Positions 23,238 to 27,506 of a stretch of 64,000 nt of DNA are shown one piece after another; positions within the stretch are counted from its first letter, which is position 1, and each line of letters starts with the position of its first letter. The DNA is from Humitalea rosea (GTDB lineage: Bacteria; Pseudomonadota; Alphaproteobacteria; Acetobacterales; Acetobacteraceae). The notes under the pieces were generated by a model. The model worked only from the letters and a program-made list of their open reading frames with translations. It was not told where the DNA came from and did no database searches. A program made the position numbers and the translations under genes. The DNA is taken from the NCBI RefSeq assembly GCF_003253705.1, contig NZ_QKYU01000011.1, forward strand, positions 62,001 through 126,000, written 5' to 3'.

Positions 23238-23804
23238 ATGTCCATCCTGTCCCGCCGCAGCCTCGCGCCCTATCTCGCGATCATTCCCCTCGCCATCGCC
23301 GCGATGAAGCCGCAGAGCGCGGAAGCCGCGACCCGCAGCGAGATCGACCGCGAGGTCGCCTCCGCCGTCGCCACCCTGCACGGCATGGACAATGCCCGTC
23401 CGCTCTTCGCCCAGGCGCAGGCCGTGCTGGTCTTCCCGAAGATCCTGAGCGGGGGCTTCATCATCGGTGGCCAGTACGGCGAAGGCGCCCTTCTGCGCGG
23501 CAGCAATACCGAAGGCTACTACAACATCGCCGGCGCCAGCTTCGGGTTGCAGATCGGCGCACAGGTCGCCGGGCTGGCCATGTTCTTCATGACCAATGAC
23601 GCGCTGGCCGCGCTGATGCGCGCCGATGGCTGGGAAATCGGCAGCGGCCCGTCCGTCGTCGTGCTGGATCGTGGCGTGCAGGCGAATGTCTCGGCGACGA
23701 CGCTGCGCGAGCCGGTCTACGCGATCAGCTTCAGCCAGGAAGGGCTGATGGCCGCCTTGGCGCTGAACGGCACCAAGATCACCAAGATCACGCCCGCCGC
23801 ATAG
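23238..23804 (+). CDS. SYLF (Ysc84/DUF500) domain protein, exported
   Basis: The 188-residue protein has an N-terminal signal (RRSLAPYLAIIPLAIAA with cleavage near AEA). One SYLF domain follows: AQAVLVFPKILSGGFIIGGQYGEG, then SFGLQIGAQ. SYLF proteins bind lipids, and bacterial members are periplasmic or outer-membrane associated with unclear roles. AAGGAG precedes ATG 23238. The 3' end overlaps the convergent ScfR-type regulator gene by 17 bp. Confidence 0.9.
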   Translation: MSILSRRSLAPYLAIIPLAIAAMKPQSAEAATRSEIDREVASAVATLHGMDNARPLFAQAQAVLVFPKILSGGFIIGGQYGEGALLRGSNTEGYYNIAGASFGLQIGAQVAGLAMFFMTNDALAALMRADGWEIGSGPSVVVLDRGVQANVSATTLREPVYAISFSQEGLMAALALNGTKITKITPAA

Positions 23805-25206
23805 CCTTCGCCCCGGGCTTGGGGGCGAAGCGGTAGGGCGCCGCACTTTCCTCCAGCGGGTCCACCGCCAGCCGGTGTTCCAGCGGGGGGAAGGCGCGGC
23901 TGCGGCAGTCCTCCCGGTCGCAGAGCCGGCAGGACAGGCCGATGCCGACGACCGCCTTCTCCAGGTCCAGCCCATCGGCATAGACGACCTCGGCCGCGCG
24001 GCCGATGTCGCAGCCCATGGCGACGACATGGATCGGGGGCGGTTCGCCCCATTTGGCCGGCGCCCCCTGCACCGTGCGCGCGAAACACAGGAAGGTCGCG
24101 CCATCGGGCAGGGCCGCGAGCTGCACCCGCATCATCCCCGGCGTCGCGAAGGCGCCATGCACGATCCAGCGCGGACAGGACCCGCCGTAGCGCGCGAAGG
24201 GAAACCCCGCGGCCGAAAACCGCTTGCCGACATTCCCCGCCGGGTCCAGCCGCAGGAAGAAGAAGGGCAGCCCGCGCGCGCCCTCCCGTTGCAGCGTGGA
24301 CAGCCGGTGGCAGGCCTGTTCGAAGGACACGCCGAAGCGCGCCGCCAAAGCCTCCATGTCATGCCGCAGCGCCCGCGCCTGCGCGAGATAGGGCGCATAG
24401 GGCAGCAGCAGCGCCCCCGCCGCATAGTTCAGCAGCCCGACCCGCAGCAGGGCGGCGGCCTCCGTGGTGCTCGGCGCGGCCTGGGCGATGATGCTCTCCA
24501 CCGCCTCCCGCGCCTCCAGCAGCATCAGGTGGAAGGCCATCTGGAAGCCGCGGCTTTCGCGCGGCAGGCTGTCCGAGAGGTGCAGCCGGCGGGTCGCGGC
24601 ATCGTAGCGGCGATGGGACTGCTCCATCGGCCCGACCTGCACCACGATCCCATGCTCGCCGCGCAGCCGGGCGGCGATGGCGTGGTTCATTTCGGAGGGT
24701 GCGGCACCCAGACGGGCGCCCACCCGCTCGGCCGCCTCCTCCAGGCTCGGGAAGTGGTTGGCGCGATCATGGAAGATGTCGCGCACCTCCTCGGTCGGCA
24801 GCAGCAGGCGGCGGCCGGTGGGCAGCGAGATGCCGCTCGCATCCTCCCGCGCCACGCGCCAGGCGCGGTAGAGCGCCAGCATCGCCCGCCCCGCATTGGG
24901 GGCTGAGCCGGCCAGGGTCTCGACCTCATCCTCCGGCACCGTCTCCAGCCCCAGCAGCGGATCGGCCAGGACCTCGCGCAGCCCGGCCTCCATCAGCCGT
25001 TCCTGATGCCCCGAGAGGGTGGCGAGATCGGCCCCCAAGGCCTCCGACAGCTTGATCAGCAAGGCGGCGGTGACGCCGCGCTGATCATGTTCGATGAGGT
25101 TGAGGTAGGACGCCGAAATGCCAAGCCGCACCGCCAGCGCCATCTGCGCCTCGCCGCGCTCGGTCCGGAGACGACGAATGGTGCGGCCGATCCTGGGGGC
25201 TGCCAT
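23788..25206 (-). CDS. Short-chain fatty acid / glyoxylate-type regulator (ScfR/RamB/MccR family)
   Basis: The 472-residue protein has an N-terminal XRE helix-turn-helix (QMALAVRLGISASYLNLIEH). A central ImmA/IrrE-like region follows (FQMAFHLMLLEARE, where the usual HExxH is absent). A C-terminal DUF2083 domain ends in a cysteine cluster CRLCDREDCRSRAFPP. Relatives (RamB in actinobacteria, MccR/ScfR in proteobacteria) control isocitrate lyase or the methylcitrate pathway according to short acyl-CoA levels. It is divergent from aceA with 156 bp between the starts, which supports control of that gene, but the binding is inferred. Confidence 0.9.
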   Translation of the reverse strand: MAAPRIGRTIRRLRTERGEAQMALAVRLGISASYLNLIEHDQRGVTAALLIKLSEALGADLATLSGHQERLMEAGLREVLADPLLGLETVPEDEVETLAGSAPNAGRAMLALYRAWRVAREDASGISLPTGRRLLLPTEEVRDIFHDRANHFPSLEEAAERVGARLGAAPSEMNHAIAARLRGEHGIVVQVGPMEQSHRRYDAATRRLHLSDSLPRESRGFQMAFHLMLLEAREAVESIIAQAAPSTTEAAALLRVGLLNYAAGALLLPYAPYLAQARALRHDMEALAARFGVSFEQACHRLSTLQREGARGLPFFFLRLDPAGNVGKRFSAAGFPFARYGGSCPRWIVHGAFATPGMMRVQLAALPDGATFLCFARTVQGAPAKWGEPPPIHVVAMGCDIGRAAEVVYADGLDLEKAVVGIGLSCRLCDREDCRSRAFPPLEHRLAVDPLEESAAPYRFAPKPGAKAMRRA

Positions 25207-25362
25207 ACTTTACAACTTTCACGGATTGTCGAAGGGCCGCGTCAAAACCACCACGCGATTGCGGTGCGGGGCGCAGAATGAGGGCTGCATTTCGCGGCCG
25301 CAAGGTGAATTCTTCACACAGGCGACGGGGCAACCCGACGCGCATCGTTGAAGGAACCCAGC
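25207..25362. promoter_or_regulatory. Divergent control region between the ScfR-type regulator and aceA
   Basis: This 156-bp segment must hold both promoters. It is less GC-rich than its surroundings, with a TACAACTTTCACGG stretch near the regulator start. A palindromic CGCGGCCGCA and a TGAATTCTTCA segment lie nearer aceA. The aceA ribosome-binding site AAGGAA ends the region. No operator can be assigned by eye. Confidence 0.5.
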
Positions 25363-26661
<1,299 letters not shown>

Positions 26662-26675
26662 GGGGAGGCAGAGAC

Positions 26676-26858
26676 ATGAACACGCAGGATTTCGACGACG
26701 GCCTGGTCCATGGTCATCCCTGGATGAGCGAGCCGCCCCGCAGCGGGCAGATGCCGATCCGCCTCACACCTCCCACGACAGTGGAGGCCGATTATGATGA
26801 CGGGCTGGTCCATGGCCATGGCTGGGCTTGCAGCGAGCGCGGCCAGCCGGCGGGCTGA
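26676..26858 (+). CDS. 60-residue protein with two DDGLVHGHxW motifs
   Basis: I do not recognise a characterised family. The gene starts 14 bp after the aceA stop with a strong GGGGAGG ribosome-binding site and ends before a good terminator, so it is very likely translated with aceA. The protein is built of two copies of one motif, FDDGLVHGHPWMSE near residue 6 and YDDGLVHGHGWACSE near residue 40, joined by a proline-rich linker. The His/Asp content could suit metal binding, but this is speculation. There is no signal peptide or membrane segment. Confidence 0.75.
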   Translation: MNTQDFDDGLVHGHPWMSEPPRSGQMPIRLTPPTTVEADYDDGLVHGHGWACSERGQPAG

Positions 26859-26865
26859 CGGGACG

Positions 26866-26886
26866 GGGGGGCGCCGGTCGCCCCCC
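26866..26886. terminator. Strong GC hairpin between the aceA operon and the DUF1345 gene
   Basis: A perfect 8-bp stem, GGGGGGCG paired with CGCCCCCC around a 5-nt loop, lies between convergent genes. It could terminate transcription from both sides. Confidence 0.65.
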
Positions 26887-27506
26887 TACCCCGCTAGCCC
26901 CGCCGCGATATTCACCGCCGCGGCCAGGATCACCGCGTTGAAGGCGAAGGCCACCAGCGAGTGCAGCAGCACCACCTTGCGGATCGCCGGGCTGTCGGTG
27001 GTCACATCGCTGACCTGGGCGGTCATGCCGATGGTGAAGGCGAAATACAGGAACTCGGAATACTCGGGCGTGCCGTCGCCGCCTGGAAAATCGATCCCGC
27101 CGTCGGAGCTCCAATACTCATGCGCATACTCATGCGCGAAGAGCATGTGCACGAAGAGCCAGGAGAGCAGGATCGTCGTGCCCGTCAGTATCGTATTCGC
27201 CGTGGTCGGCGGACCGCCCACCGCCGCGTCCCAGCCGACCCCGGCGACCGAGGCGACCGCGGCGGTCAGGGAGAGGGCAAAGACGGTCCATCGCCGCTCG
27301 GCCAGCACCTCCGCCCGGCGGCGCATGGTCTCCGCATCGGCGGCCCAAAGCCGGTGCAGCATCAAGGATGTGTAGATCACGACAAGCACGCACCAACCCG
27401 CCAGCACCGGCGCGACCCCACGCAGGCCGCCGCCGAACGCGGCGCCGCCCGCGACCATCCCGCCCCCCAGCGCCCAACCCAGAACGGGCCGGCGCAGGGC
27501 CATCAT
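26886..27506 (-). CDS. DUF1345 integral membrane protein
   Basis: The 206-residue protein has about five hydrophobic helices and the family motif FAHEYAHEYW in a loop, followed by EYSEFLYFAFTIGMTAQVSDV. The function of DUF1345 is unknown. The ATG at 27506 overlaps the stop of the upstream dehydratase as ATGA (the sequence reads ATGATGG), so it is coupled to the D-amino-acid operon. This supports the short start over a reading to 27776. Confidence 0.85.
   Translation of the reverse strand: MMALRRPVLGWALGGGMVAGGAAFGGGLRGVAPVLAGWCVLVVIYTSLMLHRLWAADAETMRRRAEVLAERRWTVFALSLTAAVASVAGVGWDAAVGGPPTTANTILTGTTILLSWLFVHMLFAHEYAHEYWSSDGGIDFPGGDGTPEYSEFLYFAFTIGMTAQVSDVTTDSPAIRKVVLLHSLVAFAFNAVILAAAVNIAAGLAG

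Follow-up and report, generated by a model that had tools for sequence, protein, structure and literature searches.

The window, which is the whole 64,000-nucleotide stretch of DNA analysed here, carries an isocitrate lyase gene, aceA, with a regulator gene divergent from it and a small open reading frame (ORF) just behind it. The features of this locus are the following.

23788-25206, minus strand: RamB/ScfR-type regulator, divergent from aceA, with HTH, Peptidase_M78 (IrrE-like) and ScfRs domains
25208-25230, no strand assigned: operator box A, at the regulator end, predicted from sequence; CTTTACAACTTTCACGGATTGTC, tandem, consensus CTTTACAnnnTTTACAnnTTTAC
25300-25319, no strand assigned: operator box B, at the aceA end, predicted from sequence, 92 bp from box A; GCAAGGTGAATTCTTCACAC, consensus GCAATGTgAATtATTcAC
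25363-26661, plus strand: aceA, isocitrate lyase (NF011645, 730 bits, cut-off 562); the motif forms its C-terminal tail in many relatives
26662-26668, plus strand: ribosome-binding site GGGGAGG, 7 nt 5' of the small-ORF ATG
26676-26858, plus strand: small ORF of 60 codons for a two-motif peptide (architecture B below), from its translation and homologues
26691-26723 (core 26694-26723), plus strand: motif copy 1, FDDGLVHGHPW, followed by M where A is usual
26793-26828 (core 26796-26825), plus strand: motif copy 2, YDDGLVHGHGWA
26865-26887, plus strand: GC hairpin with no T-run, 3' of the small ORF and within a larger stem

The small ORF encodes the 60-residue product MNTQDFDDGLVHGHPWMSEPPRSGQMPIRLTPPTTVEADYDDGLVHGHGWACSERGQPAG. 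The first-pass annotation had described it as lying 14 bp behind aceA, with a ribosome-binding site, and ending before a strong hairpin. This agrees with the aceA stop at 26661, the GGGGAGG that follows it and the larger stem around the hairpin (-46.3 kcal/mol, z -2.7), although an intrinsic terminator was not called there, the T-run being absent. The description of the protein as essentially one motif twice was right on the two copies, both of which fit [YFH]D[DE]GLVHxHxW[A], but overstated, as the motif accounts for about 24 of the 60 residues. The 24-bp cores of the copies differ at four bases, all of them synonymous, and the whole 4.97-Mb genome has only these two motif matches, both inside the small ORF.

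The motif was found in the AceA tail or at most 300 bp 3' of aceA at 29 of 29 aceA loci, and because these loci had been chosen by AceA similarity and not by the motif, the small ORF is far beyond chance. Frameshifts in close relatives, or absence from them, were looked for and the claim of a genuine gene stood; synonymous variation, synteny and conservation rule out a chance ORF or annotation noise. The peptide family appears to be new, in that we found no described family, structure or literature account: the 60-residue peptide had no Pfam-A or NCBIfam match at E up to 10, no match in the PDB (the only hits were at E 0.09 and 0.8) and no relatives in plasmid and viral collections, and literature searches returned no mention of 'DDGLVH' and no description of an isocitrate lyase tail peptide.

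Distribution and conservation of the motif

A search for the motif and its gene neighbours, as the first-pass annotation had proposed, found it in 97 of 220 Acetobacteraceae genomes. In a class-wide draw of 385 genomes the window's own genome was the sole match (0 of the 384 others). A pattern scan of named genomes gave at least 118 loci with the motif; among the matches listed, almost all belong to Acetobacteraceae and to relatives labelled Rhodospirillales, and the few in other taxa look like chance. Judged from these searches, the DDGLVH-type motif is frequent among Acetobacteraceae and almost restricted to them.

In 36 aligned AceA sequences D-G-L-V-H-x-H-x-W-A is invariant and the linker before it is variable. 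Every motif residue is encoded by several synonymous codons. Outside the search pattern, the position before the motif is aromatic or His in 208 of 212 cases and the position after it is Ala in 200 of 212. This mixture of synonymous codons, together with the conservation of the flanking aromatic/His and Ala positions, demonstrates at the level of sequence that the motif is under selection as protein. Some AceA genomes without the strict pattern have variants (DDGLVHAHNYA, DHGIDHAHDWAR, DDGQVHNHEW), and DDGLIHNHSWA was found in a genome initially scored as motif-free.

In related genera (loci L253, L255, L262, L263 and L270) the AceA tail has diverged to D[DH]GIDHxHxWAR, in which the spacing and HxHxW are kept and LV is replaced by ID. 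Many one-motif peptides (L007, L008, L046, L039/L280, L375) carry near the C-terminus a second conserved stretch, [RT]xPSTxxxDD (e.g. IPTPSTAYHDDKLEG, RTPSTVHQDEHIHPC), in the place of the second DDGLVH copy.

Architectures, regulator and operator

In a search of 40 relatives the motif proved to be fused to the AceA C-terminus in some genomes and to form a separate small ORF in others. Across the family it occurs in these arrangements.

Architecture A: C-terminal tail of AceA; common and widespread among AceA
Architecture B: separate ORF just 3' of aceA, with one or two motifs; the window, Roseomonas sensu lato, Siccirubricoccus and others
Architecture C: aceA absent, motif ORF directly divergent from the regulator, on aceA's promoter; Acidocella-like genomes and others
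Architecture D: motif ORF immediately 5' of a PRK06498-type isocitrate lyase gene; Roseomonas mucosa-type genomes
Architecture E: relocated copies, e.g. near phaR or a 3-hydroxybutyryl-CoA dehydrogenase gene

Fused and separate forms interchanged at least eight times on the regulator tree, so that we are dealing with a linear motif that moved repeatedly between an enzyme tail and a free peptide. At the other end of the enzyme a leader, M[RH]xxxTPxFAPDG, begins 110 of the 125 Acetobacteraceae AceA with a readable start and none of 23 AceA from outside the family, and at 24 AceA loci of other alphaproteobacterial families we found neither leader nor tail. We could recognise no APDG leader in the AceA of the window. 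Of 33 architecture C peptides, 22 have the AceA leader [AS]P[DE]G at the N-terminus and the tail at the C-terminus, the enzyme core being gone; hence both ends outlived the catalytic domain, in a gene that lost its core and usually kept its two extremities. The same kind of leader stands on most PRK06498-type isocitrate lyases of Acetobacteraceae, and the form xN[YF][AS]P[DE]G is common to the two distant lyases in this family only (AceA, e.g. L143 and L125; PRK06498-type, L295-L319). This shared N-terminal leader may be a second docking motif.

AceA proteins without the motif tail often end in -AAE or similar small residues (window 26650-26658; L339, L341, L343, L345, L351, L360), which could be a C-terminal degron. 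In an Asaia metagenome-assembled genome (L054, 5359-5424) the AceA tail stands apart as a 21-residue frame, whereas it is fused in the relative L177; either the split is very recent or the sequence contains an error. The gene aat, found 3' of architecture C peptides, was set aside as a neighbour in one clade and not a functional lead.

The regulator at 23788-25206 scores 206.7 bits for ScfRs (cut-off 24), 79.1 for Peptidase_M78 (22) and 32.2 for HTH_31 (27). Against the RamB equivalog NF038139 it reaches 397 bits, below the NCBIfam cut-off of 700, and we therefore class it as a RamB-like member of the ScfR family and not as the RamB equivalog. It is homologous to the crystallised MtPrpR, which carries a [4Fe4S] cluster (PMC6765138), and is related to the RamB protein of Paracoccus denitrificans, through which CoA esters govern the glyoxylate cycle (PMC10370305); it has the same domains as these two proteins. 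It also resembles the RamB/ScfR family, whose members regulate the metabolism of acetate and short-chain acyl-CoA, in standing divergent from an isocitrate lyase gene with a conserved multi-box operator between them; the parts of the two papers that we consulted mention no small peptide or isocitrate lyase tail. At nearly all family loci that have aceA or an architecture C peptide and enough upstream DNA, the regulator is divergent.

Boxes A and B recur upstream of 195 regulator loci, including those of architecture C, mostly 91-93 or 81-83 bp apart. With a box A matrix trained on regulator upstream regions, 14 of 15 relocated motif genes had an upstream site outscoring all of 430 control windows drawn from the same loci (p = 2e-11), and box A also lies 5' of several PRK06498-type isocitrate lyase genes. 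Nearly all forms of the motif are preceded by a predicted RamB/ScfR-type operator. In 18 genomes searched with up to two mismatches, 6 of 6 operator sites were at the regulator divergon or a motif gene and the control gave 0; with three mismatches 12 of 19 were at such genes (coordinates read by eye), the other 7 equalling the 7 matches of the reversed control. Since near-exact sites were found only at regulator, lyase and motif genes, the predicted regulon looks minimal, comprising regulator, lyase and peptide. The box A of the window itself has diverged and was missed by the operator search patterns, so weaker sites may exist.

Among the 220 genomes, 97 have the motif, 108 AceA and 134 a regulator orthologue. 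The regulator is found in 94 of the 97 motif genomes, the three exceptions being incomplete assemblies. Sixteen motif genomes have no full-length AceA: 12 have a PRK06498-type isocitrate lyase, about 28-33% identical to AceA, two a partial AceA (at contig ends or in split loci), and two are incomplete. In some lineages regulator and isocitrate lyase are retained with no motif that we could recognise, and three genomes with the regulator and no isocitrate lyase are also devoid of the motif. The tie to aceA and to the glyoxylate shunt that had been proposed has strong support, as the motif often lies within AceA, tracks the operator when it moves and is confined to genomes with an isocitrate lyase.

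Candidate partners and role of the peptide

What these comparisons demonstrate, as far as genome sequences can, is co-regulation by operator sequence, interchange between cis and trans forms, persistence of the motif where the AceA core has been lost, and its joint occurrence with regulator and isocitrate lyase. On this basis the peptide is probably a co-regulated, trans-acting linear motif of a RamB-isocitrate lyase module, a reading we favour with some reserve. The motif [YFH]D[DE]GLVHxHxWA would dock on a partner present in all motif genomes and, when supplied in trans, would act as a protein-level signal that the glyoxylate shunt is switched on. Two motifs per peptide could allow bivalent docking on an oligomeric partner.

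CP12, PirC and the glutamine synthetase inactivating factors are small protein regulators of central metabolism, and a CP12-like domain occurs both alone and fused. The peptide may work like them, being short, probably disordered, co-induced with a pathway and endowed with conserved motifs. It has no sequence relation to CP12 (no CP12 domain was found in Pfam at E up to 10), and, unlike all these regulators, its motif is also the tail of the pathway enzyme itself. With one regulator, one enzyme and one peptide motif, the module is small and testable, and the motif offers a clean marker by which dozens of small ORFs that have been overlooked can be annotated.

The regulator is our tentative first choice as the single partner, with feedback of a gene product on its acyl-CoA-sensing part. 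It ranks first on two grounds: no well-sampled motif genome is without it, and we recognise nothing else under its control. Next come isocitrate lyase and enzymes of the branch point, isocitrate dehydrogenase for example. A bolder and rather doubtful extension is that the AceA tail turned into a transferable reporter, the regulated genes delivering DDGLVHxHxWA and the motif feeding back on the regulator. If so, the regulator would sense, in addition to acyl-CoA, the proteins that its own regulon produces, and this would be why the signal persisted after the loss of the enzyme core to which it had originally been attached. The joint absence of motif and lyase in three genomes with the regulator is not required by a purely regulator-directed role, and one linked deletion explains it. 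In a covariation test with few independent losses, the conserved regulator columns were not lost in motif-less lineages and no AceA column tracked the presence of the motif; hence no receptor surface is indicated in either protein. The AlphaFold model of AceA built with 58 diverse sequences had a mean pLDDT of 83.6, with most of the core above 90, and left both leader (37) and tail (about 46-51) unplaced in the monomer; with 36 close sequences the mean was only 48.6. Both tests are weak, as they lack complexes and many independent losses.

The first-pass annotation had suggested a small binding partner or a metal-binding peptide. The motif might indeed bind isocitrate lyase instead, as an extra subunit or an active-site lid, and tune its activity or assembly, the tail acting in cis and the peptide in trans. 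We regard this as unlikely, if still worth weighing. It fits the wide occurrence of the fused form among AceA, the restriction of the motif to genomes with some isocitrate lyase, the position of the R. mucosa-type ORF directly upstream of a PRK06498-type lyase gene, and the APDG leader common to both lyase types in Acetobacteraceae. Yet two lyases of about 28-33% identity would have to be served, no AceA column tracks the motif, and the monomer model places neither leader nor tail. Binding that depends specifically on the AceA surface is disfavoured in particular, because the motif persists after AceA has been swapped for a lyase this distant.

It is improbable that isocitrate dehydrogenase (or malate synthase) is the target, inhibited or tethered by a peptide that stands in at the isocitrate branch point for the missing isocitrate dehydrogenase kinase/phosphatase, AceK. 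AceK was absent from all 220 family genomes, under a search that detected the E. coli positive control, which is weakly consistent with its replacement but may mean little, having been counted in Acetobacteraceae only. Such a peptide would be expected exactly when isocitrate lyase is made, as the predicted operator implies; however, neither icd nor malate synthase showed a genomic link to the motif. Whichever protein it is, the identity of the partner would show how an AceK-less bacterial family controls entry into the glyoxylate shunt.

Still less probable is a metal-binding peptide in which D, D/E, H and H would be the ligands and which would deliver or sense Mg, Mn, Fe or Zn for isocitrate lyase or for the probable iron-sulphur cluster of the regulator. 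Isocitrate lyase requires a divalent metal. The D, H and H residues are invariant, with W after them, and the related MtPrpR has its [4Fe4S] cluster (PMC6765138). But Gly, Leu, Val, Trp and Ala are conserved as strictly as the candidate ligands, a pattern more like that of a docking epitope, and in the AlphaFold model the 11 residues of the motif adopt no independent fold. Finally, it is very unlikely that the motif marks AceA for degradation or localisation and that the separate ORFs are remnants in decay: the motif does sit on a flexible C-terminal extension, but such remnants would not stay intact, duplicate, move with the operator and be kept after loss of the core, as the separate copies do.

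The relocated motif genes of three genomes (L288, L290, L095) lie a few kilobases from phaR, and two of them are also near a PhaC-like gene, a neighbourhood hinting at a link with polyhydroxyalkanoate metabolism.
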